DNA of 64,000 nucleotides, from contig NZ_JACCGK010000003.1 of NCBI RefSeq assembly GCF_013416325.1, positions 124,001 through 188,000 of the forward strand. Direction: 5' to 3'. Under the pieces are notes generated by a model. That model worked only from the letters and a program-made list of their open reading frames with translations, was not told where the DNA came from and did not search any database. The stretch comes from Vreelandella sedimenti. GTDB taxonomy: Bacteria; Pseudomonadota; Gammaproteobacteria; Pseudomonadales; Halomonadaceae. How positions within the stretch are numbered: position 1 is the first letter of the stretch; the number at the start of each line of letters is the position of its first letter. The position numbers were made by a program, and so were the translations under genes. Positions 16,739 to 29,858 of this stretch are shown here, piece by piece.

Positions 16739-18559
16739 TTATGATCGACTCGCTAACCACCCCCGCCAGCCGCCAAACTCGGTAATATCCTCTGCTTTAC
16801 CACCTTCGTTTAGCGCCCCTGCGGTGCAGATAAAACCGCACTTCCAACTGCCATCGACAAGTTCCACCTGGCCTAAACCGAGCGGTGCGGGTATGCCCGC
16901 TAAAAAGCTGCCCAGGGTCTCGATAGGCAGACGCCACACTTCCACTTCAATGGCTTGCCCATTCTCGTCGCGTAGCATCGCCGGGCGCTTTGGGCCCCCG
17001 CCTGCCAGAGCAAACAGCTTATAGCGCGGGGCGCTGTGGGTAGTGTTCACCAATACGCCGCGGCGTTCTGTCAATTGGTGATTCAGCGGCAGGCCTTTTA
17101 GGTGCGCACCGCATACCACTAGTTCTATGCTGCCGTCTTGGGCAGGAGCGGTGAGTTCTGCTAAAGGCGGGTGTTGAATTCCGGTCGCGCCTAACGGCAG
17201 CATTAAACGAGTTTCGAGAGCGCGAGCGAGGGAGAGCAGCGTTAGATCAGCAAATACGGGCCCAAAGAGCGTGACGCCAACTGGCAAGTCCCGCTCGCTA
17301 AAGCCTATAGGTACGGCCAGGGCGCTGTAATCGAGCAGATTCATAAAGTTGGTCCAGGTGCCCAGGCGAGAATTGACACTGATTGGATCCGCCGCTACCT
17401 CGGCCTTGCTCGGATGCGTGACCGTGGTGGGTGAAAGCATCACATCCACCTGACTGATGAGTGCGTCTGCCTGACGCTTATACTCAGCGAGTTTATAGCG
17501 TGCATCGAAGGCGTCTACCGCCAGCGGCGTGGCACCATCTTGGGTAATTTCAAACGTGACCGGATGCACCGCATCCGAGTGGCTCTTCATCAAATCGCGA
17601 ATCACATGGTAGCGCTCGGCCACCCAAGGGCCTTCGTAGAGCAAGCGCGCTGCCGCCAGTAACGGCGAACAGTCCAGCTCGACCTTTTCACCCCCAATGG
17701 CTTCAAGCTCGGCAATCGTCTGGTGCATGCCTTGGGTATAGGCCGCATCGGTTTGCCACTGGGATTCCAGCGGCACCCCAAAGCGGAACGCAGTGGGCGC
17801 TTTGCCGTAGCGTTTACCGTACACCGCAAAATCATGCTGTCGCGACCAAGCGCACTGATCATCATAGGCAGCGGTAATATCCAACACCTTTGCGGCATCG
17901 TCTGCGGTCAGCGCAAACAGGCTAATGGTATCCAGCGTGGCACAGGCGGGAACTACGCCGCGGGTGCTAAGCAGCCCCAGGCTGGGTTTAACCCCGTACA
18001 AGTTATGAAAGCAGGCAGGTACACGACCAGAACCGGCGGTATCGGTACCGAGTGCAAAGCTAACCATACCGGCCGCGGTGACCACCGCTGAGCCGCTGCT
18101 GGAGCCGCCGGGCACCAGCGTTGGGTCAAAAGCATTAGCAGGTGTGCCGTAAACTTCTAGCGCCCGCTCTCCCACCAGCCCGGTGGCGAACTGATCCAGG
18201 TTGGTTTTGCCCATGGGAATCGCGCCCGCATCAATCAACTGCTGCACCACAAAAGCGTTTTCCGTAGGTGCATAGGCATACGCCGGGCTGCCAGCGGTGG
18301 TAGCAACCCCCGTCAGGTCGATATTATCCTTCAGAGCAAAGGGAATGCCGTAAAGCGGTAGCGTCTTCGGCGATTCGCCTTCCAGGCGCTTCAAATAGGG
18401 CGCCAACTGCTCGCGACTTAAGCGAGTAATCCAGGCAGGCTCTTTACCGTGGGCCTCGGCTTGAGCGAGCAAATCGTCGATTAACGCTGCAGGGGTGAGT
18501 TCACCCTGTTGGTAGGCGGTGTGAAGGCTGGCGATATCGAGTGCGATAGGAAGCGTCAT
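16739..18559 (-). CDS. atzF: Allophanate hydrolase
   Basis: AtzF hydrolyses allophanate to ammonia and CO2, the last step of guanidine (or urea) carboxylase pathways. The amidase-signature domain has the Ser-cisSer-Lys triad: Lys77 (FALKDNI), Ser153 in GGSSSGS, and nucleophile Ser177 in GTDTAGSGR. A C-terminal domain of about 130 residues (from roughly 470) completes decarboxylation, as in the two-domain family. Length (606) is typical. It is the last gene of the guanidine operon, 14 bases after the unknown 239-residue protein gene. The riboswitches upstream place its substrate within guanidine breakdown. Confidence 0.95.
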   Translation of the reverse strand: MTLPIALDIASLHTAYQQGELTPAALIDDLLAQAEAHGKEPAWITRLSREQLAPYLKRLEGESPKTLPLYGIPFALKDNIDLTGVATTAGSPAYAYAPTENAFVVQQLIDAGAIPMGKTNLDQFATGLVGERALEVYGTPANAFDPTLVPGGSSSGSAVVTAAGMVSFALGTDTAGSGRVPACFHNLYGVKPSLGLLSTRGVVPACATLDTISLFALTADDAAKVLDITAAYDDQCAWSRQHDFAVYGKRYGKAPTAFRFGVPLESQWQTDAAYTQGMHQTIAELEAIGGEKVELDCSPLLAAARLLYEGPWVAERYHVIRDLMKSHSDAVHPVTFEITQDGATPLAVDAFDARYKLAEYKRQADALISQVDVMLSPTTVTHPSKAEVAADPISVNSRLGTWTNFMNLLDYSALAVPIGFSERDLPVGVTLFGPVFADLTLLSLARALETRLMLPLGATGIQHPPLAELTAPAQDGSIELVVCGAHLKGLPLNHQLTERRGVLVNTTHSAPRYKLFALAGGGPKRPAMLRDENGQAIEVEVWRLPIETLGSFLAGIPAPLGLGQVELVDGSWKCGFICTAGALNEGGKAEDITEFGGWRGWLASRS

Positions 18560-18573
18560 AATAGATTCCTCAA

Positions 18574-19293
18574 TTAAATCGGTGTCACGAAAGAAGGCTT
18601 AAGTAGATTTTTTGCGCCATCCAGAATCAGTCCCTTTCGCCAGGGCTGGGTAGATAGCATTACTTGCCAGCCGTCTTGGCTTTGCTGTAAGTAGTCAAAG
18701 CATAGGCTGGCGCGCCAGCGTAGGGTGTCTTCGGCGGCGGTACTTATGGGGGAAAACAGATCGGAAATGTTGGCGGCTGGGCGCGGGGTAATCGCTATAG
18801 CGTGGTTACCTATTTGCAGCCAGCGCAGTTGCCCCTGCTCGTCTTGAATCACTTCTTCAACGGCATTATTGGCAAGCCGCTGCCAGTGCTCAACGTACTG
18901 ACCGTGAGGGTGTCGCTCTTCCAGGGTGGTGTCGTTAATCCATTGCAGTAGTCCTACATCCTTTTCCAGACTAGGGCATAGATCCTGATAGCGGTGCCAG
19001 ATGCATAGCCTTTTGCATAGCTCGCCTTTTATTTGAGTAATACCCGCAAAAGCCGTGAGCCCCGCCAGCCACTCAAGCTGAGATCGGTTGCAGTCGTCTA
19101 AACAAGTGATGCCTGCAAAGCCAGGCGAGTCCGCAGGCAGGCGCAGGTCGGCATGCCAGTGCTTGCCCTGTAGCCAATACACCTGCGTAGTGGTGTCGGC
19201 CCTTTGGTAGGGCTCAATAGCGGGCTCGGCGTAAAGAGTACGCTGCCATACGCCGCGAAATGTTTGAGGTGTGGCTGGCAGGTTAGCGTTCAT
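18574..19293 (-). CDS. Unknown protein encoded within the guanidine operon
   Basis: A 239-residue soluble protein rich in Trp, His, Gln and beta-prone segments (FRGVWQRTLY, VYWLQGKHWHADLRLP near the N terminus). The pattern of an N-terminal VW-R start and a YWLQ...ADLR strand pair reminds me of lipocalin-like HRI1 proteins, but this is tentative. No signal peptide or catalytic motif was seen. Its start overlaps the end of the oxygenase gene by 11 bases, so the two are translationally coupled and probably act together. Its place between the carboxylase/oxygenase and atzF suggests a role in guanidine-compound use. I cannot give a function. Confidence 0.8.
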   Translation of the reverse strand: MNANLPATPQTFRGVWQRTLYAEPAIEPYQRADTTTQVYWLQGKHWHADLRLPADSPGFAGITCLDDCNRSQLEWLAGLTAFAGITQIKGELCKRLCIWHRYQDLCPSLEKDVGLLQWINDTTLEERHPHGQYVEHWQRLANNAVEEVIQDEQGQLRWLQIGNHAIAITPRPAANISDLFSPISTAAEDTLRWRASLCFDYLQQSQDGWQVMLSTQPWRKGLILDGAKNLLKPSFVTPI

Positions 19294-20353
19294 AAGGGGG
19301 TTCCTTATGTTTGCCGTGCTGGCCTAGGCTGCCCACTTCGCGGGAGCCCTCTGGGAGTGTGATTTCGCCCTTTGCCAGTCGATCGCGGAGATAGCGGAAG
19401 GTTTGGATCGTTTGGGCGTAGAGGTGATCACCCGCTTTAAGCGGTGCGTAATGGGCTTTGCCGTGGCGCTGGACTAATTCAGGCCGCGGCGCGACCTCAG
19501 TATGATAATCGCAGGCGAAAAATAGCGGGAAGGAGTAGCGCTCCTGTTTCACTTTGCGCACACGGTGAGAGGTCGCCACAAACTCGCCGTTACTCCAGAT
19601 TTCCAACATATCGCCAATATTCACCACCAAGGCATCGTCTTGATACGGCACATCAATCCATTCGCCCGCACCGTTCATGACTTCAAGCCCAGGCGCGGTG
19701 GGTAGCAGCAGGGTAAAGCACTCGTAGTCAGTATGCGCGCCAATGCCTTGGGCGTCTTCGGCGTCAGGATTGTAAGGGTAGTGAATAAGGCGCAGCTGGC
19801 TGGGTGGTTTGTTGACGTGGCGCAGTAGCTGCTGTTCTTCAAGCCCTAAGGCCAGAGCAAAGCCGCCCATCAGCGAGCGACCCACCTGATAAGCCGCCTC
19901 ATAATAAGCGGCCACCGGTGCGCGGAAACCGTCAAGGTCTGGCCAGGGATTGGGGCCGAGCAAAGGCGTTCCGGCTAATACTTCAGGGTCGCTTTCGGGA
20001 AGCTCAAAAGCGAGATCAAAAGCCTCTTTCATATCAGGCTTGTTAGGGTCTGGTGACTCTTCACCGGGAGGGACATAGCCCCGATGATGGTGGTAAAGGC
20101 CAATATAGCGCTCCATTTTGGCTGCTTCAGGTTGAGCAAAGAAGCGCTTGGCTTGGCAAATCAACCCTTCGCGCAAGGAGTGATCAATTCCGTGCCCCAC
20201 CATTTGAAAGAAACCTACTTCCCTTGCGGCGCGGCCAAGGGAATCGGCGACGGCTTGACGCGCGGGGGTATCGCCATGGAGTAGGTCGTTAATGTCGATG
20301 ACGGGAATGGACTGGAAATCAGCCAAGCGCTGATCGTTAGGAAGCTGACTCAT
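19283..20353 (-). CDS. 2-oxoglutarate/Fe(II)-dependent oxygenase, isopenicillin N synthase-like
   Basis: A 356-residue oxygenase with the DIOX_N region (about 16-120) and the jelly-roll 2OG-FeII domain. The iron triad is His207, Asp209 (GIGAHTDYECF) and His263 (ATSHRV); Arg272 and Ser274 (RYS) would bind 2-oxoglutarate. GIGAHTDY also occurs in the ethylene-forming enzyme, which releases guanidine from arginine. The start overlaps the carboxylase stop by 4 bases (ATGA), and the stop overlaps the next gene by 11. An attractive inference is that it hydroxylates the carbon next to a guanidino group so that free guanidine is released for the carboxylase. Substrate specificity is not visible in sequence. 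Confidence 0.9.
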   Translation of the reverse strand: MSQLPNDQRLADFQSIPVIDINDLLHGDTPARQAVADSLGRAAREVGFFQMVGHGIDHSLREGLICQAKRFFAQPEAAKMERYIGLYHHHRGYVPPGEESPDPNKPDMKEAFDLAFELPESDPEVLAGTPLLGPNPWPDLDGFRAPVAAYYEAAYQVGRSLMGGFALALGLEEQQLLRHVNKPPSQLRLIHYPYNPDAEDAQGIGAHTDYECFTLLLPTAPGLEVMNGAGEWIDVPYQDDALVVNIGDMLEIWSNGEFVATSHRVRKVKQERYSFPLFFACDYHTEVAPRPELVQRHGKAHYAPLKAGDHLYAQTIQTFRYLRDRLAKGEITLPEGSREVGSLGQHGKHKEPPYER

Positions 20354-23300
20354 GCGCCCGTCTCCTCTTTACTGGTGAGCACTACAAGCGGTTGCCCAGG
20401 CCCAATAGACGCCCCTTCGCTTATGGGAAGCCGGGAAACGCAACCCGCGCAGTGAGCAGTTACTTCTACCTCCATTTTCATGGATTCGACTAACGCTACT
20501 GCTTGACCGGCGCTAACCTGCTCGCCTTCTTGTACCAGCAGTTTCCATAGGCTGCCGGTTACCGGGCTTTCAATACCCACTTCGCCGTCGGCCAAGGTTT
20601 CGATTTCAGGGCTAGCCGGTACTTGATCTTCAAAGGTGAACTGACCATTAGAACGCCAGGCGGCCATCTCTGCCTGGAAGGCAGCTTCGCGCTTGGTACG
20701 GAAGGTTTCGATGGCGTCGGCGTTTTCGTCGATGTCAGCTTGGTAGTCCGCCAAACGGAAGTGTGCCGTTTCGGTGGACAGCTCAAAACGACCATGGGGG
20801 AAGTCGCGGCGAATTTGCTCAAGCTCGTCGTGGCTGACTTCATAAAAGCGCAGCTGATCAAAAAAGCGCAGCAGCCAGGGGTTTTCGAAGTGTTGGGTGG
20901 TGCGGTAGCGGTTCCACATTTGTAGCGTGCGACCGACAAACTGGTAGCCACCGGGGCCTTCCATGCCGTATACGCACAAATAGGCACCGCCGATGCCCAC
21001 AGAGTTTTCTGCCGTCCAGGTGCGGGCGGGGTTGTATTTGGTGGTCACCAAGCGCTGGCGCGGATCCAGCGGTGTGGCGACGGGGGCGCCTAGATAAACG
21101 TCGCCAAGACCCATTACCAGGTAGCGGGCATCGAAAACGATATCGCGCACTTGTTGTTCGCTCTCCAGTGCATTGATGCGGCGAATAAAGTCGAGGTTGC
21201 TGGGGCACCAGGGTGCATCTGGGCGCACGCTGCGCTGGTATTTGTCGATGGCTTCGTGGCAAGCAGGATCGTCCCAGGAGAGCGGTAGATGCACCACCCG
21301 CGACTCAACCTCTAGCGACTCTATGTCGACTAGCGCCTGCTCGGCTTTGAGCAAGTGCTCGAGCAACTCATCAAGGCTAAGTTCTAGCGGTTCATAGTGA
21401 ACTTGTAGCGAACGAATGCCGGGGGTTAGCTCCCGTAGGCCGGGCAGCGAGTGTTCCTGTAACCACAGCATCCAAGCGTGTACGCGAAAGCGCAGCGCGA
21501 TATCCAACTCCATCGCACCAAATTCTATCAGCAGGAAATCGTCCCCGGCGCGGCGGTAAACGATGCGCTCACCGGCTTGCTGAGTAGGGACGTCGCGCAG
21601 GATCGGGGTGTCGCGTTCTGGCTGAATATCGTCAACAGGCGGCGCTGTAAGGTTCTCTAACTGGGCGCGCTGGCGCGCTTCCAGGCTGCGGGCGGTGGCG
21701 AGGCTAACCGCCACAAAGCGCACCTTATCGCCAGCGGCGAGCTGTCCTAGCTTCCAGCGTTCGGCACGCACCACGGTGGCCGGGCAGACAAAACCGCCTA
21801 AAGAGGGGCCGTCGGGGCCAAGAATCACCGGCATATCGCCAGTAAAGTCGATAGTGCCAAAGGCGTAGGCGTTATCGTGGATATTGGAGGGGTGTAACCC
21901 CGCTTCGCCGCCATCGGCTCGGGCCCACTCGGGGCGCGGGCCAATCAGCCTTATGCCGGTGCGGCTGGAGTTGTAGTGGACTTCCCACTCGTGGTCGAAG
22001 AAGCACTGGATGTCGTCATCGGTAAAAAAGTCCGGCGCGCCGTGGGGGCCGTAAAGCACGGCCACTTGCCAGGTCTTGCCGCTGTTTTGATGGCCGAAGG
22101 TAGGTATTAACGCCTCATCCAAATGCGCCTGGGAGGTGGCGGCAAGCGAGGGTAAATCGAGCATATCGCCGCTGCGCAGCGCTCGGCCGCCGTGGCCGCC
22201 GAACTGCCCGAGGGTGAAGGTGCTGCGTGAGCCTAAATAGCGTGGGCATTCGATACCGCCACGCACTAGTAAGTAGGCCCGCGCGCCCGCAGCGACCTTG
22301 CCCAAGCTAAGCGTTGCTCCAGCGGGAATATCAGTTACCTGCCAAAAAGCAACTGTTTCGTCATCGAGCGTTGCAGGGAGCTCGGCACCCGTCAGCACGA
22401 TTTGTGTGGCGCGGTGAAAACGCAGCGTCGGGCCGGTCAGGGTGATTTCAAGCCCGGCGGCATCGGCGGGGTTATCGAGCAGGCGATTGCCGAGGCGAAA
22501 CGACCAGTCATCAAAGGGCCCGGAAGGCGGCACGCCCACATCCCAGTGGCCCTGGCGGCCGGGGTGGTCTTGAATCGTTGTCACTGTGCCGGGGGCGATC
22601 ACTTCAATGGTGGGCGGCGCCCACTCCAGGGTGGTTAGCCAGTGGGTGTCCAGGTCGGCGTCACGAAAACGGTCTGCGCGCAGCGCATGGGCAAGCCAGG
22701 CGCGGTTAGTGGTAATGCCGTAAACGCTGGCGTTATCCAGCGTGTCTGCTAACTGTTCGATAGCTGCGGCTCGGCTGTCTGCGTGAACAATCACTTTGGC
22801 TAGCATGGGGTCAAACAGTGCCGATATTTCTAGCCCAGCTTCAATGGCGTGGTCGATGCGCAGACCGTCAGCCTTGGGGAAATCGACTTCTGTCAGCAAG
22901 CCTGCGCTGGGGCGGAAGTCGTGGGTGGGATCTTCGGCGTAGAGGCGCGCCTGTACGGCATGGCCGCGTGGGGCGAGGTCGTTGGTGAGCGTCTCAAGGG
23001 CGGGCAGTTCGCCTGCCCCGAGGCGTACCATCCACTCAACGATATCAACGCCGTAGACTAGTTCGGTGACGCCGTGCTCGACCTGGAGTCGGGTATTGAC
23101 CTCTAAAAAGTAGAACGCTTCCCGCTCAGCATCGTAAATAAACTCGACGGTTCCTGCGCTACGGTAGTTGACCGCCTTGCCCAGTTGAACCGCCGTGGCG
23201 TGCAGCGCCTGGCGAACGGGTTCGGGCAGGTTGGGGGCCGGACACTCTTCAAGCACTTTTTGGTGGCGGCGCTGGGTAGAGCAGTCGCGTTCACCGAGGG

Positions 23301-23979
23301 CGATCACGCTGCCTTGGCCATCGCCAAATAGCTGAACTTCCAGGTGCCGGGCGCGGGCGATATAGGCTTCCAGAAACACGCCGCCGTCGCCAAAGTTGCG
23401 CTCACCTAGGCCTTTCACTGAGTCAAAGGCGCGTTCAAGCTCGGCGGGGGTTTGGCATACCTGCATACCGATACCGCCACCTCCGGCGGTGGATTTGAGC
23501 ATTACCGGGTAGCCAATTTGCTCGGCGCTGGTGAGTGCCTCGTTAACGCTTTCGAGAAGTTTTGAGCCGGGCACCAGGGGCACACCGGCGTTTTTGGCCA
23601 GGGCGCGGGCCTGGTGTTTTAGGCCAAACTGTTCAATTTGCTCGGCGGTGGGGCCTAGAAAGGTCAGCCCTGCTGCGTCGCAGGCTTCGATAAAGCGGGT
23701 GTTCTCTGACAGAAAGCCGTAGCCAGGGTGAACGGCTTGTGCACCGCTTTTTTTGGCAATGGTGATCAGCTTGTCGATATTAAGGTAGGTATCGCTGGCC
23801 GAGCCTTCGCCCAGGGCATAGTTCTCATCAGCCTGATGAACGTAGGGCGCGTCCCGGTCGGCGTCGGCGTAAACCACCACGCTGCCGATATTGAGTGTTT
23901 TGAGAGTACGTAAAATACGTGCGGCAATGGCACCGCGATTGGCAATCAGTACTTTGCTAAACGTTTTATTGATGGACAT
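20350..23979 (-). CDS. Guanidine carboxylase (urea carboxylase family, biotin-dependent)
   Basis: A 1209-residue multidomain carboxylase: biotin carboxylase (about 8-455, with the ATP-grasp loop TAGGGGIGM and EVNTRLQVEHGVTE), KipA/AHS2 carboxyltransferase half (about 460-780), KipI/AHS1 half (about 800-1010), and a C-terminal biotinyl domain with VESMKME (biotin Lys1168). It would carboxylate guanidine to carboxyguanidine. Asp711 in TIDFTGDMP stands where urea carboxylases have Asn (NFTGD), consistent with guanidine preference. A class II guanidine riboswitch lies directly upstream. ATG 23979 was preferred over a TTG at 24024, which would begin inside the riboswitch and lacks a spaced ribosome site. 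The stop overlaps the oxygenase start by 4 bases. Confidence 0.92.
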   Translation of the reverse strand: MSINKTFSKVLIANRGAIAARILRTLKTLNIGSVVVYADADRDAPYVHQADENYALGEGSASDTYLNIDKLITIAKKSGAQAVHPGYGFLSENTRFIEACDAAGLTFLGPTAEQIEQFGLKHQARALAKNAGVPLVPGSKLLESVNEALTSAEQIGYPVMLKSTAGGGGIGMQVCQTPAELERAFDSVKGLGERNFGDGGVFLEAYIARARHLEVQLFGDGQGSVIALGERDCSTQRRHQKVLEECPAPNLPEPVRQALHATAVQLGKAVNYRSAGTVEFIYDAEREAFYFLEVNTRLQVEHGVTELVYGVDIVEWMVRLGAGELPALETLTNDLAPRGHAVQARLYAEDPTHDFRPSAGLLTEVDFPKADGLRIDHAIEAGLEISALFDPMLAKVIVHADSRAAAIEQLADTLDNASVYGITTNRAWLAHALRADRFRDADLDTHWLTTLEWAPPTIEVIAPGTVTTIQDHPGRQGHWDVGVPPSGPFDDWSFRLGNRLLDNPADAAGLEITLTGPTLRFHRATQIVLTGAELPATLDDETVAFWQVTDIPAGATLSLGKVAAGARAYLLVRGGIECPRYLGSRSTFTLGQFGGHGGRALRSGDMLDLPSLAATSQAHLDEALIPTFGHQNSGKTWQVAVLYGPHGAPDFFTDDDIQCFFDHEWEVHYNSSRTGIRLIGPRPEWARADGGEAGLHPSNIHDNAYAFGTIDFTGDMPVILGPDGPSLGGFVCPATVVRAERWKLGQLAAGDKVRFVAVSLATARSLEARQRAQLENLTAPPVDDIQPERDTPILRDVPTQQAGERIVYRRAGDDFLLIEFGAMELDIALRFRVHAWMLWLQEHSLPGLRELTPGIRSLQVHYEPLELSLDELLEHLLKAEQALVDIESLEVESRVVHLPLSWDDPACHEAIDKYQRSVRPDAPWCPSNLDFIRRINALESEQQVRDIVFDARYLVMGLGDVYLGAPVATPLDPRQRLVTTKYNPARTWTAENSVGIGGAYLCVYGMEGPGGYQFVGRTLQMWNRYRTTQHFENPWLLRFFDQLRFYEVSHDELEQIRRDFPHGRFELSTETAHFRLADYQADIDENADAIETFRTKREAAFQAEMAAWRSNGQFTFEDQVPASPEIETLADGEVGIESPVTGSLWKLLVQEGEQVSAGQAVALVESMKMEVEVTAHCAGCVSRLPISEGASIGPGQPLVVLTSKEETGA

Positions 23980-23998
23980 GGCACTGCCTGCAAACAAA

Positions 23999-24047
23999 GG
24001 CGGGTCGTCCCGCAGAAGAGTCAACCTCTTGGGGTCGTCCCCAGAGA
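23999..24047 (-). ncRNA. Guanidine-II (mini-ykkC) riboswitch
   Basis: The minus strand shows two hairpins with identical ACGA tetraloops closed by G-C pairs. The first is GGGG-ACGA-CCCC (24042-24031), extended by CTCT/AGAG; the second is GCGGG-ACGA-CCCGC (24013-24000). Tandem GGG-ACGR-CCC stem-loops joined by a short linker define the guanidine-II class. The linker contains AAGAG-gttga-CTCTT, which could form an alternative hairpin competing with the base of stem 1. The second hairpin ends about 20 bases before ATG 23979, fitting control of translation initiation of the carboxylase. Confidence 0.88.
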
Positions 24048-24065
24048 TTTAGTGCTGTGGCCCAT

Positions 24066-24203
24066 TCAGGAGAGACGCGAAAACGCTGTGAACCCATCCA
24101 TGGGCGCTCGGCTTTTTCATCTGACCGCCATGGATGGCGGGAATGCCGGAATTGCATGGAGCTCTTTCCGGCCCTGAAAAAGACGTTTCGCTTACTCTCC
24201 TGA
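24066..24203. repeat. Structured dispersed repeat, copy A
   Basis: Outer arms TCAGGAGAG (24066-24074) and CTCTCCTGA (24195-24203) pair, followed by further pairing of GCGAAA with TTTCGC. An inner stem CTTTTTCA/TGAAAAAG encloses the shared core CTGACCGCCATGGATGGCGG (24121-24140) and an ATGCCGGAA...TTTCCGGC hairpin. A further hairpin CCCAT-cc-ATGGG lies in the left part. It occupies the gap between the UAAP2-type gene and the class II riboswitch, within the guanidine locus. Related copies are at 32553-32688 and 63182-63336. Confidence 0.85.
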
Positions 24204-24226
24204 CTTGATCAGCGCCTATTCTCATG

Positions 24227-24865
24227 TCAGTCCCAAACCAACAGCTCAATAGGCGTTGGGTTGTAGTCGTTGCAGGGGTTATTGAGCTGGGGGCAGTTGG
24301 AGACCAACACGATCACATCCATCTCGGCGACCATCTCAACGTATTTACCCGGTGCGGAGATGCCGTCCTCAAAGGTTAGCCCACCGTCGGCGGTGACCGG
24401 CACATTCATAAAGAAGTTGATGTTGTGGGTGATATCGCGCTTGGTAAGCCCAAACTCTGGATAGTTGGCGATGGCGTGCATCCAGTTATCCCGGCAGGAG
24501 TGCATATAGCGCTTTTCCAGGTCGTAGCGCACGGTGTTGCTTTCGCTGGCGCAGGCGCCGCCCAGGGTATCGTGACGGCCGCAGGTGTCAGCGGTAATCG
24601 TCAGCATAGTGCGGCCTTCGCTGGAGATCAGCGGGGAGCCTGCGGTGAGGTAAACCGCGCCTTGTTCGCGTACCGTATCCATGGCGCTGTAGCGCTCGCT
24701 GGTATCGTCAGCGCTGAAGAACAGCGTATCTGCGGCCTGATTGCCTTCTAAATCGAGAATACGCAGGGTTTGGCCGCGTTTAACGATGCCTATGTAGTGG
24801 TCGCCTGCGTTTACAGTGGTGCGGCTTAAGGCATTTTCGGGGCGTAAAGTGCTTTCAATAATCAT
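24227..24865 (-). CDS. Carboxyguanidine deiminase subunit (urea carboxylase-associated protein, DUF1989)
   Basis: A 212-residue DUF1989-family protein, formerly annotated as urea carboxylase-associated protein. Pairs of such proteins have been shown to form carboxyguanidine deiminase (CgdAB), converting carboxyguanidine to allophanate and ammonia. It keeps the family's metal-ligand-like Cys and His in [17 protein letters not shown], and the [11 protein letters not shown] and [11 protein letters not shown] segments, so it is probably the metal-bearing subunit. The start follows a GGGGGA ribosome site; it lies 15 bases after the partner gene. I do not assign CgdA or CgdB. Confidence 0.9.
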
Positions 24866-24880
24866 GGTGTTCGTTCCCCC

Positions 24881-25603
24881 TTATAGGCCGAGGTGGTAAA
24901 GACGGTTATTGGCGAAGCCGCGGGCATTTTCGGGCCGCGAGCGGTAGCAAGGGTCGTCTTCGGTGGTCGGCTCGGCGGTGCCGAGGGCGATGTCCACGCC
25001 TCGACGGGGGTACTCCGTGCTGAGGTCGAGTGGGTGGGGGCAGGTGTGCAGCAGCACGAGTGTGTCCATCTCAAAGCGCAGTGTGACGCTTTGGCAGGGC
25101 TGGCAGTGGCCAGAGATATAGCGCAGCCTGCCCTCGTCATCGCTTTCTACCCGGGAGAAAAGATTTAGATTGGCGGCCATGTCCCTGCGGCCCAGGCCGT
25201 ACTTGGCCAATTCCACTAAAAAGGCATCGAAGCCAGTGAGCGTCCAGTCGTTATGGGCCTGTTGATAACTGACCGGCTGCCAGCCTTTCTGCAGCAGATG
25301 GTGGGGCATTAAATTGCCGCCCACGCTATCGTGCCAGCCCAGATCATCATGGGTGATGGAGGCAAAAATACGCCCCATATCCGAGTAGAGGCAGTGGCCC
25401 TGGGTGAGTTTAAAGGTGTGTTGACACTTCAGGGTGTCGGGTAGGTTTAAGCGCTCCAGCAGGTTTTCGGGGTTGTAGCATAAAAGCCCTACGTTGCTGT
25501 CGGCTTCCTGCGCCGTCAAGGTCAAGGTGGTGCCGCGGCGCAGGCGCAGCGACCAGTGGTGCCCGCCAGGTAAATGAGTGGTGTATCGCGCTTCGTTGAT
25601 CAT
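24881..25603 (-). CDS. Carboxyguanidine deiminase partner subunit (urea carboxylase-associated protein, DUF1989)
   Basis: A 240-residue paralogue of the adjacent 212-residue protein and presumably its partner in carboxyguanidine deiminase. The segment aligned to the partner's CGRHD...GGAC reads LGWHDSVGGNL, so the cysteines are missing while the His-Asp pair remains; NLNLFSRV and HTCPHPLDL correspond to the later motifs. The start overlaps the ABC ATPase stop by 4 bases (ATGA), coupling uptake and breakdown. Confidence 0.9.
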   Translation of the reverse strand: MINEARYTTHLPGGHHWSLRLRRGTTLTLTAQEADSNVGLLCYNPENLLERLNLPDTLKCQHTFKLTQGHCLYSDMGRIFASITHDDLGWHDSVGGNLMPHHLLQKGWQPVSYQQAHNDWTLTGFDAFLVELAKYGLGRRDMAANLNLFSRVESDDEGRLRYISGHCQPCQSVTLRFEMDTLVLLHTCPHPLDLSTEYPRRGVDIALGTAEPTTEDDPCYRSRPENARGFANNRLYHLGL

Positions 25604-26394
25604 AGCAGCGTCTCCTGGGTGTGAGTTTTCAGACCGCCCTGGTAAAGCGCTTCTTGCAAGTCTGTTGAGGGGCGGTCTCTCGAAATAGGAAGGTCGTAAG
25701 TAATTGTGGCGCCATATGCCTCCGGCGCCTGTGGGTCTTGACGGGTTTTATCGAATACCCACAGCCGCGTGCCTAGCTCAAAGGCTTCTTTAAGGTCGTG
25801 GGTAATCATAAAGATCGTCAGGTGCTGCTCTTGCCACAGGCGGTTGATAAGCACATGCATATCCTGACGAATGCCTGGGTCAAGCGCGCCGAAAGGCTCA
25901 TCGAGCAGTAAAATGCGCGGCCGCATCATCAGCGCCTGGGCGATGGCCAAGCGTTGCTGCATACCACCGGAGAGCTCGTGAGGATACTTTCTGAGCGCAT
26001 GGCTAAGGCCGACTTCTTCAATGCGAGCACGAGCCTTTTCAATAGCGTGGCGCTTGTCTGAGCCAAAACTCTTGCCCAGCAGCTTGGCGCGGTGAAACTC
26101 ATCGGCAATCATTACGTTGCCCTGCACCGTGAGGTGAGGAAACACCGAGTACTTCTGGAACACCACTCCCCGGTCGGGGCCGGGCTCATTGGGGATGGGT
26201 TTTTCATCCAGCGTTAAGCTACCCCGCGAGGAGGCTTCAGTGCCCAGAAGCATTTTAAGAAAGGTGGTTTTACCGCATCCCGAGGCGCCCACTAAGGTGA
26301 CAAACTCCCCGGACTCAACGCTAAAATTAAGGTTTTCGAGCACAACGTGATTGCCGTAGTGCTTCTCTAATCGTTTGGCCGCGAGAAGGCTCAT
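25600..26394 (-). CDS. ABC transporter ATP-binding protein, probable guanidine uptake
   Basis: A 264-residue ATPase of the nitrate/sulfonate/taurine (SsuB/TauB) type. Walker A is GASGCGKTT, the signature is LSGGMQQRL, Walker B is ILLLDEPFGALD, and the switch His is in ITHDL. It energises the importer formed with the permease and binding protein just upstream. Both junctions are 4-base overlaps. Substrate is inferred from the upstream guanidine-I riboswitch and downstream enzymes; the protein family alone would suggest only a small organic or inorganic ion. Confidence 0.93.
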   Translation of the reverse strand: MSLLAAKRLEKHYGNHVVLENLNFSVESGEFVTLVGASGCGKTTFLKMLLGTEASSRGSLTLDEKPIPNEPGPDRGVVFQKYSVFPHLTVQGNVMIADEFHRAKLLGKSFGSDKRHAIEKARARIEEVGLSHALRKYPHELSGGMQQRLAIAQALMMRPRILLLDEPFGALDPGIRQDMHVLINRLWQEQHLTIFMITHDLKEAFELGTRLWVFDKTRQDPQAPEAYGATITYDLPISRDRPSTDLQEALYQGGLKTHTQETLL

Positions 26395-27218
26395 GAATTA
26401 TCTCCTTCGCCGGCGTGATACCAGGGGAATGCTAGCCGCGACACCCAGGCCAGCAGTTGGTCGAGCAGAAACGCCAGTAGGGTGATCCAGGCCACATAAG
26501 GCAAAATCACATCCATCGATAGATAACGACGTACCAGAAAAATGCGGTAGCCAAGCCCTTCCTGCGCCGCGATGGCTTCAGCGGCGATCAAAAAAAGCCA
26601 AGCAGTGCCCAACGCCAAACGGGTGGCGTTCAGTAGCCGAGGGGTAAGCTGTGGCAGCAGCACTCTTAACAGCACCTGCCAGGAGCTGGCGCCTAGGGTT
26701 TGTGCTTTGATCAACTGCTCATCGGGGAGCCGCAGGGCGTGGCCTTGAAGGTCACGAATAAGAAATGGCGTTACCCCAATCACAATCAGGGCAATTTTGG
26801 CGGCCTCACCGGTACCAAAGGCGATAAATAGAATCGGCAGTATCGCCATAGGAGGAATCAGCGAGGCGACAGTAACTAGTGGCGAAAGCTTGGCGCGCAC
26901 AACAGGCAAGCCGCCGTTTAGGATACCCACCACTAGACCAATCAATGCACTAATACCGACACCAATCACAATACGTTCCAGGCTTGCGAAAGTGTCTGTC
27001 CACAGCACAATCTCCCCCGTGCGAACGTTCTCGGCGGTGGCCAAGTGATAAAACGAGCTTGCCATGGTCGAAGGCGTGGGCAACAAACGGTCGTTAGGGT
27101 TTTCCGCCAGCCTTGCGTTGGAGAGGCTCATATAGAGCATAGCCAGTAGCAAAAAAGGCAGCAGGCCCAACAGCCAGCGGCCGCCCCGAGAGGGCGTTAA
27201 GTTAATTAATCGCTTCAT
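26391..27218 (-). CDS. ABC transporter permease, probable guanidine uptake
   Basis: A 275-residue inner-membrane permease of the SsuC/TauC/NrtB class with about six helices. The coupling-helix (EAA) region is KAQTLGASSWQVLLRVLLPQ (contact site for the ATPase). ATG 27218 was chosen; in-frame extension to a TTG at 27257 lacks a ribosome site and adds no conserved sequence, and a GTG at 27230 is also possible. It overlaps the ATPase gene by 4 bases and follows the binding-protein gene after about 75 bases. Confidence 0.92.
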   Translation of the reverse strand: MKRLINLTPSRGGRWLLGLLPFLLLAMLYMSLSNARLAENPNDRLLPTPSTMASSFYHLATAENVRTGEIVLWTDTFASLERIVIGVGISALIGLVVGILNGGLPVVRAKLSPLVTVASLIPPMAILPILFIAFGTGEAAKIALIVIGVTPFLIRDLQGHALRLPDEQLIKAQTLGASSWQVLLRVLLPQLTPRLLNATRLALGTAWLFLIAAEAIAAQEGLGYRIFLVRRYLSMDVILPYVAWITLLAFLLDQLLAWVSRLAFPWYHAGEGDNS

Positions 27219-27293
27219 GACGGTGTCCACGAAAGATGGGAGCAGAGGGAGTGGCAAGGGCCACTCCCGTCGCGCTAATGCAGGAGGGACCCG

Positions 27294-28382
27294 TTACTGA
27301 GCGTCGAGATACGCTTGGGTAAAGCTAGGTTCGAAGCGCAGTTGCACATTGCTCTCATCGCCAAACATGCCGCTAGGGGTTTCGATGCCGACGACGCCAG
27401 CATTGGGCGCCATATCGCCGAGTAGGCCATGGGTGAAACTAAACTCGGCGACCCGTTCCATGGTTTTGAGCAGCTCGGGGCTTTCCATTAACTCAATTGC
27501 CTCTGCTGGGTCGGTATACAGGTAGGTGGCGTCTAACTGAGAGCGATAGCCTTCAAGGTCGGTGCCCGCCGCATCGGCCATAATGTTGAGGGCATGCTCA
27601 TCATCCGCTTCAACCAAACCCATTACTTCATACCAAGCACCGACCAAAGCGTGGCCAAGGGCAGGGTTATCGGCTAGGGTTTGGGTGTTGACCACCATCA
27701 TATCGAGGATTTCGCCGGGGATTTCCGCTGAGGTATACACCACGTTGGCATCGGGCATATCAGCGATGGCGCTTAGCTGTGGATTCCAGGCAGCGACAGC
27801 TTCGGTGGTATCGCTAGAGAAGAGACCAACAATATCCGCATCGGAGGTATTGACCGTTTCGATATCGCGTTCAGTAAGGCCGACGCTCTCAAGGGCGCGC
27901 GCCAGGAAGTAGTGGGAGACACTGAACTGAACCAGGTTGACCTGGCGGCCTTCAATATCGGCAAGATCGTCGCTACCTTTGAGCACGATGCCGTCGTTGC
28001 CGTTGGAGTAGTCGTTGATAATCAGTGCAGTGGAGTCGACGCCACTGGCGGAGGGGATTGTCAGCGCATCCATATTGGTCATGGCGCAGCCGTCAACATT
28101 GCCCGAGGTGAATTGGTTAATCGATTCGACGTAGTCGTTCACTTGCACCACATCAATGCTAATGCCGTACTTGTCGGCCCATTTATCGACCACGCCTTCA
28201 ACGTCGGCGTAGGCCCAGGGCATCCAGCCGGCATAAATCGACCAACAGACGCTAAACTCGTCCCGCTCTTGGGCTTGGGCAGGCGCAGCCGCAACAAGAG
28301 TTGCCAGCAGGGTGGTAGAGAGTGCGGCGGAAAGCGAAGTGAGGGGTAAGCGTTTTGGGGAAGTACGATTGCAACGGGTCAT
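27294..28382 (-). CDS. ABC transporter substrate-binding protein, probable guanidine uptake
   Basis: A 362-residue periplasmic binding protein of the nitrate/taurine type with a signal peptide cleaved near APAQAQE. The mature protein begins with FSVCWSIYAGWMPWAYADVE, the opening typical of ykkC-associated binding proteins. It is the first gene after the class I guanidine riboswitch; GGAGG lies five bases before ATG 28382. It would capture guanidine in the periplasm for the permease and ATPase encoded just downstream. Confidence 0.92.
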   Translation of the reverse strand: MTRCNRTSPKRLPLTSLSAALSTTLLATLVAAAPAQAQERDEFSVCWSIYAGWMPWAYADVEGVVDKWADKYGISIDVVQVNDYVESINQFTSGNVDGCAMTNMDALTIPSASGVDSTALIINDYSNGNDGIVLKGSDDLADIEGRQVNLVQFSVSHYFLARALESVGLTERDIETVNTSDADIVGLFSSDTTEAVAAWNPQLSAIADMPDANVVYTSAEIPGEILDMMVVNTQTLADNPALGHALVGAWYEVMGLVEADDEHALNIMADAAGTDLEGYRSQLDATYLYTDPAEAIELMESPELLKTMERVAEFSFTHGLLGDMAPNAGVVGIETPSGMFGDESNVQLRFEPSFTQAYLDAQ

Positions 28383-28404
28383 GGCAGCCTCCAGCGGCTA
28401 AGGG

Positions 28405-28449
28405 AAAACTCGGGGGCATCGGCGCATCACTGCACCTTATCCTCCCGGG
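28405..28449 (-). terminator. Possible expression-platform terminator of the class I riboswitch
   Basis: CGGGAGG at the 3' edge of the aptamer could pair with CCCCCG (28416-28411), with one bulged A, and the downstream strand runs into AGTTTT. Because CGGGAGG belongs to the conserved aptamer, forming this stem would exclude the ligand-bound fold. This fits a guanidine-relieved transcription terminator, but the stem is short and the loop long. Confidence 0.4.
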
Positions 28450-28556
28450 CTTTTGTCCCGCCGTGTAACCTCACGCCTTGGCGTTAGGTCGATTGCTCTC
28501 GGACCAGCCACAGCCATCAGGGGGTATATGTTGATGGTGTCGGAACCCTAGCGATC
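28438..28556 (-). ncRNA. Guanidine-I (ykkC) riboswitch
   Basis: On the minus strand the conserved blocks appear in the right order: CTAGGGTTCCG (28551-28541), GGTCCGAGAG near 28505-28496, and ACGGCGGGACAAAAGCCCGG with GAGG (about 28463-28441). These are the signature elements of the class I guanidine aptamer. It sits about 60 bases ahead of the ABC binding-protein gene and would switch on the import and deiminase genes when guanidine is present. Confidence 0.95.
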
Positions 28557-28623
28557 TATTGGAAACTTAAATTGTTTGGCAGCGTTAGCCGTCGATACCC
28601 CGTTTGTAACACTTATTAATAGA

Positions 28624-28638
28624 GCAAAATATTGGCCC
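28624..28638 (-). promoter_or_regulatory. Candidate sigma-54 promoter of the guanidine operon
   Basis: On the minus strand GGGCCAATATTTTGC places GG and GC exactly ten bases apart, as in -24/-12 promoters (TGGCAC-N5-TTGC); the TTTGC half is good, the -24 half less so. Predicted transcription start is near 28612, about 56 bases before the class I riboswitch. Found by eye; no score available. Confidence 0.45.
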
Positions 28639-28716
28639 GATTTAAAAAATGCGTTTATTTTTAGTTGTTTGCTGAATTTAAATTCTGACGAGTAGCATGC
28701 CTGTTAAACATTAATT

Positions 28717-28762
28717 GCATCATGATAGTGCGGATGAATATCTTGATGCACTATTGTGAGGC
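28717..28762. promoter_or_regulatory. Two candidate NtrC-binding sites
   Basis: GCATCATGATAGTGC (28717-28731) and GCACTATTGTGAGGC (28748-28762) each match the NtrC consensus GCACY-N4-TGGTGC at 9 of 11 defined positions. Their centres are 31 bp apart, and about 112 and 143 bp upstream of the predicted sigma-54 start, close to the glnA enhancer layout. The rest of the 28557-28823 gap is A+T-rich without other features. Confidence 0.4.
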
Positions 28763-28823
28763 TTTTTATAACGATCAGCGTCAGCATTTAGAAGTCTTAG
28801 CGTGGCTTTTGATAGTCGCTTTT

Positions 28824-29858
28824 CTATAGCGGCGTTTTACTCTCTTTACCGGGGATTTCCCGCACTAGTCGTGGCATTAAGAACCCAGGTAGATGAGCGA
28901 GAAGTTGAGCAACTAGCTTGCGCGCTTCATTATCCGTCACATCAAAATGCGCAGCGCCTTGCACAGGATCCAGCACATGCAGGTAGTAAGGTAGAATACC
29001 CGCTTCGAATAGCCGTTCAGAAAGCGCGGCAAGTGTGGTGACGCTATCGTTCACATTGCACAGCAGGACACTCTGGTTGAGTAGTGTTGCACCCGCCTGC
29101 TTAAGGCGCGCACAGGCGTCTATCACTGCTTGGTCGATTTCATTGGCGTGGTTAATATGCAGCACCACCACTTTTTGCAGGCGTGTAGCTGAGAGCCAGT
29201 CAAGCAGGGCGTCATCGACCCGATCGGGAATCACCACCGGCAGGCGGGTATGAATGCGTAGCCGTTTTAGGTGCGGGATGCTTTCTAGCTGCTCCACCAG
29301 CCATGCCAACTGGCGATCGCTGGCGGCCAGTGGATCGCCGCCAGACAGAATCGCCTCGTGAATAGTGGTGTCAGCGCGCAGGTAATCCAGCGCTTCCTGC
29401 CACTGCGCTCTGGAGGGTGAGTTATCGCTATAGGGAAAATGTCGACGAAAGCAGTAGCGGCAGTTGATGGCACAGTTGGGGCTGGCAATAAGCAGCACTC
29501 GGCCAGCATACTTATGGATCAGCCCTTTGGCGGGCCGATGTTCGGCTTCTTCAAGCGGATCGACGACGTAGCCATGTGGCGTTAGCGCTTCCTCGCCAAG
29601 CGGCAGTACCTGGCGCAGCAACGGGTCGTTTATATCGCCATAGGGTATTCTGTTGAGATACGCTTCAGGAACACATACGTCAAACAGTGCATGTCCAGCC
29701 TGGGCGCCCGCCAACCAGTCGTGGCTTAGTCCCAGCCGTTCGCAAAGTGTTTGCGGATCGCGAATGGCATGAGAAAGCTGCTGCTGCCAAGTAGGTTGCG
29801 CCAGTGAGTCGCGATGGCTTTGCGTTTCAGACGCGGCAATAATGATGTTCTCCTGCAA
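28824..29858 (-). CDS. epmB: EF-P-(R)-beta-lysylation enzyme (lysine 2,3-aminomutase family)
   Basis: A radical-SAM, PLP-dependent enzyme that converts (S)-alpha-lysine to (R)-beta-lysine for modifying elongation factor P. The iron-sulfur motif is CAINCRYCFRRHFPY; LSGGDPL and RLRIHTRLPVVIP are further family blocks. The TTG at 29858 (344 residues) was chosen because AAGGAG is seven bases ahead; ATG 29882 (352 residues) has no ribosome site. It diverges from efp, its pathway substrate, across a 164-bp spacer. Confidence 0.94.
   Translation of the reverse strand: MQENIIIAASETQSHRDSLAQPTWQQQLSHAIRDPQTLCERLGLSHDWLAGAQAGHALFDVCVPEAYLNRIPYGDINDPLLRQVLPLGEEALTPHGYVVDPLEEAEHRPAKGLIHKYAGRVLLIASPNCAINCRYCFRRHFPYSDNSPSRAQWQEALDYLRADTTIHEAILSGGDPLAASDRQLAWLVEQLESIPHLKRLRIHTRLPVVIPDRVDDALLDWLSATRLQKVVVLHINHANEIDQAVIDACARLKQAGATLLNQSVLLCNVNDSVTTLAALSERLFEAGILPYYLHVLDPVQGAAHFDVTDNEARKLVAQLLAHLPGFLMPRLVREIPGKESKTPL

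Follow-up and report, generated by a model that had tools for sequence, protein, structure and literature searches.

Two guanidine riboswitch classes in an apparent single operon for guanidine assimilation in Vreelandella sedimenti

Two riboswitches and the operon they accompany

Within a 64,000-nucleotide (nt) stretch of the Vreelandella sedimenti genome (assembly GCF_013416325.1, contig NZ_JACCGK010000003.1, positions 124,001 to 188,000; hereafter the window, to which all coordinates refer), an apparent single operon on the minus strand carries a class I guanidine riboswitch (Guanidine-I, ykkC) at its head and a class II guanidine riboswitch (Guanidine-II, mini-ykkC) directly before gca, its guanidine carboxylase gene. 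This is very probably the guanidine and methylguanidine assimilation operon described in Vreelandella boliviensis, with both riboswitches acting in series on gca. An initial annotation, made from the letters of the window, had placed both classes in one pathway ahead of these genes, and a scan of the window with Rfam at the curated cut-offs (63 bits for RF00442, 32 bits for RF01068) bore this out: exactly two matches exceeded a cut-off, one to Guanidine-I (79.5 bits, full model 1-107, 28562-28440(-)) and the other to Guanidine-II (39.7 bits, full model 1-48, 24046-24000(-)). Class I had been put at 28438-28556, which is correct to within a few bases except that about 6 nt are missing at the 5' end; class II had been put at 23999-24047, and it ends 20 nt before the gca ATG (23979), its two hairpins (P1 TGGGGACGACCCCA, a 16-nt linker and P2 GCGGGACGACCCGC) both having the ACGA loops that had been read there. 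Each model has a single match at E<=0.001 in the 5,057,830-base genome (E = 3.0e-14 for Guanidine-I and 3.7e-6 for Guanidine-II), so that chance cannot credibly explain two matches within one operon, 4.4 kb from each other.

The order of the operon is class I - ATP-binding cassette (ABC) importer - cgdA - cgdB - class II - gca - mgdH - mgdL - atzF, with gene families assigned from NCBIfam and Pfam and the threshold for absence of a match set at E<=0.001. The transporter and deiminase genes expected after class I are in place. The importer, whose substrate we infer to be guanidine or methylguanidine, is made up of a substrate-binding protein (27294..28382; TIGR03427, 493.1 bits against a cut-off of 333.9), a permease (26391..27221; PF00528; start codon uncertain, with an ATG at 27218) and an ATPase (25600..26394; PF00005). 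The two carboxyguanidine deiminase subunits follow as cgdA (UAAP1; 24881..25603; TIGR03425, 287.6 bits, cut-off 205.95) and cgdB (UAAP2; 24227..24865; TIGR03424, 334.1 bits, cut-off 284.7), names taken from PMC12508155, the choice of UAAP1 as cgdA being our own. Beyond class II lie gca (20350..23979; TIGR02712, a urea carboxylase family in NCBIfam, 1792.7 bits), which has an aspartate (Asp) at position 711, then mgdH (19283..20353; PF14226 and PF03171), named by its position after PMC12508155 as a 2-oxoglutarate/Fe(II)-dependent methylguanidine hydroxylase, and mgdL (18574..19293), placed as the N-(hydroxymethyl)guanidine lyase gene is in the Fig. 1 legend of that paper; the mgdL protein had no Pfam or NCBIfam match at the threshold. 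The last gene is atzF, for allophanate hydrolase (16739..18559; TIGR02713, 720.9 bits, cut-off 511.05). Thus class I is followed by an importer, UAAP1 and UAAP2, and an Asp-type carboxylase, as befits Guanidine-I, and a dioxygenase with a neighbor lacking a family match stands between gca and atzF, as befits the MgdH/MgdL pair. The operon would serve the use of guanidine and, probably, of methylguanidine.

A two-switch guanidine operon is already known in kind, and in nearly the same organism. V. boliviensis LC1, which seems to be a close relative of the organism of the window, carries the same operon with both switches (Sinn et al. 2025, Nat Commun, October 2025; PMC12508155), and the Fig. 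1 legend of that paper gives the same gene order and families, class I coming first, class II separating cgdB from gca, and mgdH and mgdL, both named there, lying between gca and atzF. In-line probing of the V. boliviensis RNAs gave a dissociation constant of 44 µM for guanidine, the only ligand of Gd-I, and values of 93 µM for guanidine and 83 µM for methylguanidine with Gd-II, and the proteome showed the operon proteins to be induced on guanidine and on methylguanidine (PMC12508155). Ligand binding and induction were thus measured in V. boliviensis, whereas the window is known from its sequence. The published switches differ mainly in ligand choice, Gd-II also binding methylguanidine, and not in threshold; the separate ligand thresholds foreseen in the initial annotation correspond to a small effect (44 vs 93 µM guanidine), specificity being the larger difference. 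The same paper reports the two switches in several other bacteria, and the accessible text of the review PMC12186494 describes the same layout in Raoultella terrigena, Erwinia rhapontici and Klebsiella michiganensis, where class I goes with importer and deiminase genes and class II precedes carboxylase and allophanate hydrolase genes, although that text holds no mention of mgdH or mgdL. The present analysis therefore confirms, in an ordinary way, an architecture already in print and adds a useful survey.

Comparable pairings of two classes for one ligand, probably acting on transcription and on translation, are the SAM-II/SAM-V tandems (PMC9481103); these sit in one leader, whereas the switches of the window are 4.4 kb apart in one operon. 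The accessible text of PMC9481103 states that a tandem arrangement is unseen for all four guanidine classes, and that of PMC12452182, on contiguous riboswitches, treats T-box/guanidine tandems and not a pair of class I and class II guanidine switches. An apparent single message that carries two unrelated RNA sensors for the same small molecule offers a natural system for asking why both are needed.

The pair across Halomonadaceae and the type of carboxylase

The same pair is present in 30 operons among 151 genomes of Halomonadaceae, that of the window included. Class I was found in 31 of the 151 genomes and class II in 46 (49 places), and in 29/31 Rfam placed class II on the same strand as class I, 4.2-4.7 kb downstream of it; G026 has a class II pair ahead of gca by motif. 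All 30 paired loci have the order importer - cgdA - cgdB - class II - gca, with atzF not found in the fetched stretch of four of them (G010, G002, G016 and G037). An mgdH match (at least 69% identity) occurred in just 11 of the 30, seven times directly after gca and four times after atzF, and all seven genes directly after gca share the 4-nt overlap with it that is seen in the window, where the mgdH start overlaps the gca stop. Thus the occurrence of the switch pair does not depend on the methylguanidine genes, and retention of class II solely on account of mgdH was rejected as an explanation, no mgdH match lying near gca in the other 19 paired operons. Because these 19 loci keep the pair without methylguanidine genes, a need to sense methylguanidine is not enough to account for the retention of both classes.

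Asp711 of gca aligns with asparagine (Asn) 737 of the yeast urea carboxylase 3va7, which identifies gca as a guanidine carboxylase; on our own alignment, we take position 711 to be the Asp/Asn site of the published distinction. In that distinction, Asp marks guanidine carboxylases and Asn urea carboxylases (PMC12186494). A search of the family genomes for the carboxylase (E<=1e-150, at most 4 candidates scored per genome) gave 40 matches in 36 genomes, of which 30, at 60% identity or more, were the 30 paired loci, and 10 were at 51-53%. The residue at this position was Asp at every riboswitch locus (30/30) and Asn in all 10 others, and Rfam detected no guanidine riboswitch within the 7.5-8 kb surrounding each of the 10 Asn-type genes; hence, across the 151 genomes, both switches accompany 30/30 Asp-type and 0/10 Asn-type carboxylases. 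Four genomes (G132, G016, G037 and G002) hold both kinds of carboxylase, with switches at the Asp kind only. Within the family this is a simple rule that aids annotation, with at least one exception outside it. The perfect split holds in the sampled family and not everywhere, as evidenced by a Hyphomicrobium locus (L149) whose carboxylase has Asn yet lies downstream of class I (70.8 bits) and class II (42.3 bits).

Control in series and the two expression platforms

The initial annotation had treated import with deimination and carboxylation with hydrolysis as separately switched branches. This part calls for correction: class I heads an apparent single operon that includes gca, and therefore the switches would act in series on gca. 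Two transcription units, with an internal promoter before class II, are quite unlikely, even though the 247 nt between the cgdB stop and the gca start of the window would leave room for one, since the extra length between cgdB and class II is a dispersed repeat (24056..24206(-), palindromic and outside the riboswitch), and in 13 of 29 family loci the gap from cgdB to P1 is <20 nt, so that a promoter there would sit inside cgdB. A scan of 23900-29000 for sigma-70-like promoters found 0 sites (shuffle mean 3.6), which is weak evidence because the scan was insensitive and missed the operon's own promoter as well. Sigma-54-like matches occur at 23928, 25699, 27241 and 27552 (2 mismatches each), but chance produces such matches just as often, and a sigma-54 promoter for the operon was likewise rejected, pattern matches being at chance level (41 in the window vs 45.6 expected). 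The failure to find an internal promoter and the short gaps between cgdB and P1 both speak for control in series.

Under control in series, guanidine bound to the class I aptamer would prevent the overlapping terminator hairpin from forming, as is also presumed in print, and polymerase would continue into the whole operon; class II, bound by guanidine or methylguanidine, would then raise gca translation on that message. Class II probably also affects mgdH and mgdL through translational coupling, because the mgdH start lies inside the end of gca. A priming circuit can be built on the same parts, which we offer tentatively as a minority possibility: since methylguanidine cannot open class I, it may bind class II on leaky transcripts and, by way of the gca-mgdH overlap, raise MgdH and MgdL, releasing guanidine that opens class I and turns on the whole operon. 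If so, the stricter RNA receives its ligand from enzymes that the more permissive one guards.

For class I, the transcriptional mode considered probable in the initial annotation draws support from a predicted terminator-like hairpin at 28405..28454(-), in which the conserved CGGGAGG of the aptamer 3' end can pair alternatively and which is followed by AGTTTT; its predicted fold of -24.0 kcal/mol includes pairing of a 5' AAAG (A-tract) with the T-run. By our own reading, about 26 of the 31 minimum-energy folds of family loci contain such a hairpin, and 19/31 have a T-run of at least four after it. These models support transcription control by class I in the window, and less clearly in all relatives.

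Class II, in its turn, is positioned for an effect on translation. The distance from the P2 end to the gca start codon is 16-23 nt in 26 of 29 loci and 9, 13 and 34 nt in the others, with the start codons of family loci picked by rule. Translational masking is plausible from this position, which also suits the translational mode proposed initially, and from print. Plausible pairings by which P1 or P2 would mask the Shine-Dalgarno sequence occur in several clades, for example one of 8 pairs made by the 3' arm of P1 in both G101 and G116, but they were set aside on comparison with shuffles (1 of 29 loci at p<0.05). Free folds and start-region accessibility gave no clear on/off picture.

Several observations weigh against this account of the two platforms. 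At the class I end, 12 of the 31 loci lack four consecutive T residues within 100 nt, and the hairpin of the window was not listed by a generic terminator scan of it. At the class II end, P1-P2 pairs with the start region better than shuffles do (p<0.05) in just 1 of 29 loci, so that a conserved masking helix was not detected; the gca start region of the window has only a weak Shine-Dalgarno-like CAGGCAG; and class II falls below the Rfam cut-off in the paired loci G002 (29.5 bits) and G026 (27.9 bits).

An alternative, which we regard as unlikely, is that class II acts on transcription or message stability and not on translation, either with P2 and the following CTTTGTTT as a weak terminator or through Rho after loss of translation. 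The terminator scan does list P2 and its tail, the masking helix is wanting as described, and the V. boliviensis authors allow that translation and mRNA level may be linked (PMC12508155). However, P2 of the window has 5 pairs, the T-rich tail is confined to same-genus loci, terminator-like sites in the region number 8 vs 5.6 by chance, and class II is published as translational.

Finally, the shortness of the Guanidine-II motif and the two scores below cut-off might suggest a chance or relict hairpin pair without function. This is extremely improbable given the genome-wide E value of the match, the presence of class II ahead of gca in all 30 operons and the ligand bound by the V. boliviensis copy (PMC12508155), and it is further opposed by compensating changes in P1. 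Covariation was assessed on 29 of the 30 loci (18 distinct rows), chosen to have at least 4 pairs per stem, with G126 dropped, so that pairs 1-4 are paired by row choice. P1 pairs 2-6 showed 2 to 5 standard pair types and were paired in 18, 18, 18, 14 and 14 of the 18 rows, respectively; when P1 is shifted by one base, these pairs are made in 1-14 (+1) or 0-15 (-1) of the 18. Thus P1 pairs 2-6 vary in compensating fashion, the stem being conserved as in Guanidine-II, while P2 pairs 1-4 are invariant and hence uninformative on covariation.

Wider occurrence, insertions and switches outside the operon

In a sample of 321 genomes of the taxonomic class, class I turned up in 26 genomes and class II in 22, and 9 genomes, the window's own included, had both on one strand with class II lying 3.3-5.1 kb downstream of class I (judged by positions only); in G344 class II is below the cut-off. 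A contig scan gave at least 80 loci, with no Halomonadaceae named among the matches listed, to which the following counts also refer. Motif searching covered 21 loci and missed class I in several of them as well as one class II site found by Rfam, and Rfam was applied to the 19 loci with a carboxylase at >50% identity. Class I exceeded its cut-off upstream in 16/19, the other three being contigs of <7.5 kb. An over-cut-off class II lay within 50 nt before the carboxylase match in 9/19, namely in a Chromatiales metagenome-assembled genome (MAG), Pseudomonas laurylsulfatiphila, P. taeanensis, an Enterobacteriaceae strain, Caballeronia pedi, C. glebae, Paraburkholderia ultramafica, an Oxalobacteraceae strain and an Ectothiorhodospiraceae MAG, whose 4.5-kb contig stops too early for a class I to show. 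No class II preceded the carboxylase in 8/19, among them three Acinetobacter, Neorhizobium, Aliarcobacter and two short contigs. In 2/19, the Devosia and Hyphomicrobium MAGs, class II sits 1.4-1.7 kb ahead of the carboxylase, inside an operon headed by class I (L158:8280-8329 and L149:8531-8578, respectively).

The repeat between cgdB and class II (24206-24056(-)) has 28 matches in the genome at E<=0.001, 19 of them long, itself included, and a predicted fold of -61.2 kcal/mol (z -4.05); the accessible text of PMC12508155 holds no mention of such a repeat in V. boliviensis. By eye, the same repeat stands at the same place in G121 and, shorter, in G132, and is inverted in G010, while G058, G069, G080, G113 and G135 have merely 10-17 nt there. 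Also by eye, a different insert of about 140 nt occupies the same intergenic spot in G101 (L114) and is absent from its relative G116 (L115), so the spot is apparently insertion-prone. When the cgdB-gca junction was searched against plasmids, the matches listed (20 of 206 records) all fell within the cgdB part.

Class I also occurs in other settings. The genome G006 (L119:232-339) has a high-scoring class I after which just a remnant of the first gene, matching the substrate-binding protein over 122 aa, was found in the 14 kb fetched. Class II is absent from this stretch, and the class I looks like a riboswitch orphaned by loss of its operon. Head-to-head pairs of class I on opposite strands, about 300-500 nt apart, were seen at G459:C40, G205:C35 and G186:C5, which suggests divergent guanidine operons.

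Class II matches outside the operon numbered 20 in the family survey, and 18 of these lie 12-24 nt before a gene like those for small multidrug resistance (SMR; SugE/Gdx-like) exporters; of the other two, L133 lacks a reading frame of 80 aa within reach downstream, and L140 (31.1 bits, below the cut-off) precedes a different gene. SugE was the best NCBIfam family for all 10 of the 18 SMR-like proteins that were scanned, over the cut-off in 6, and the remaining 8 were judged by their likeness to these. Such stand-alone switches belong to the same Rfam family as class II of the window but, unlike it, have no class I match nearby and no intact operon gene found around them. The P2 loop on the exporter side (L121-L139) is often ACGG in a GGGGACGGCCCC-type hairpin, and on the gca side in the family P2 has mostly ACGA in GCGGGACGACCCGC; there may thus be two sequence types of class II according to gene context.

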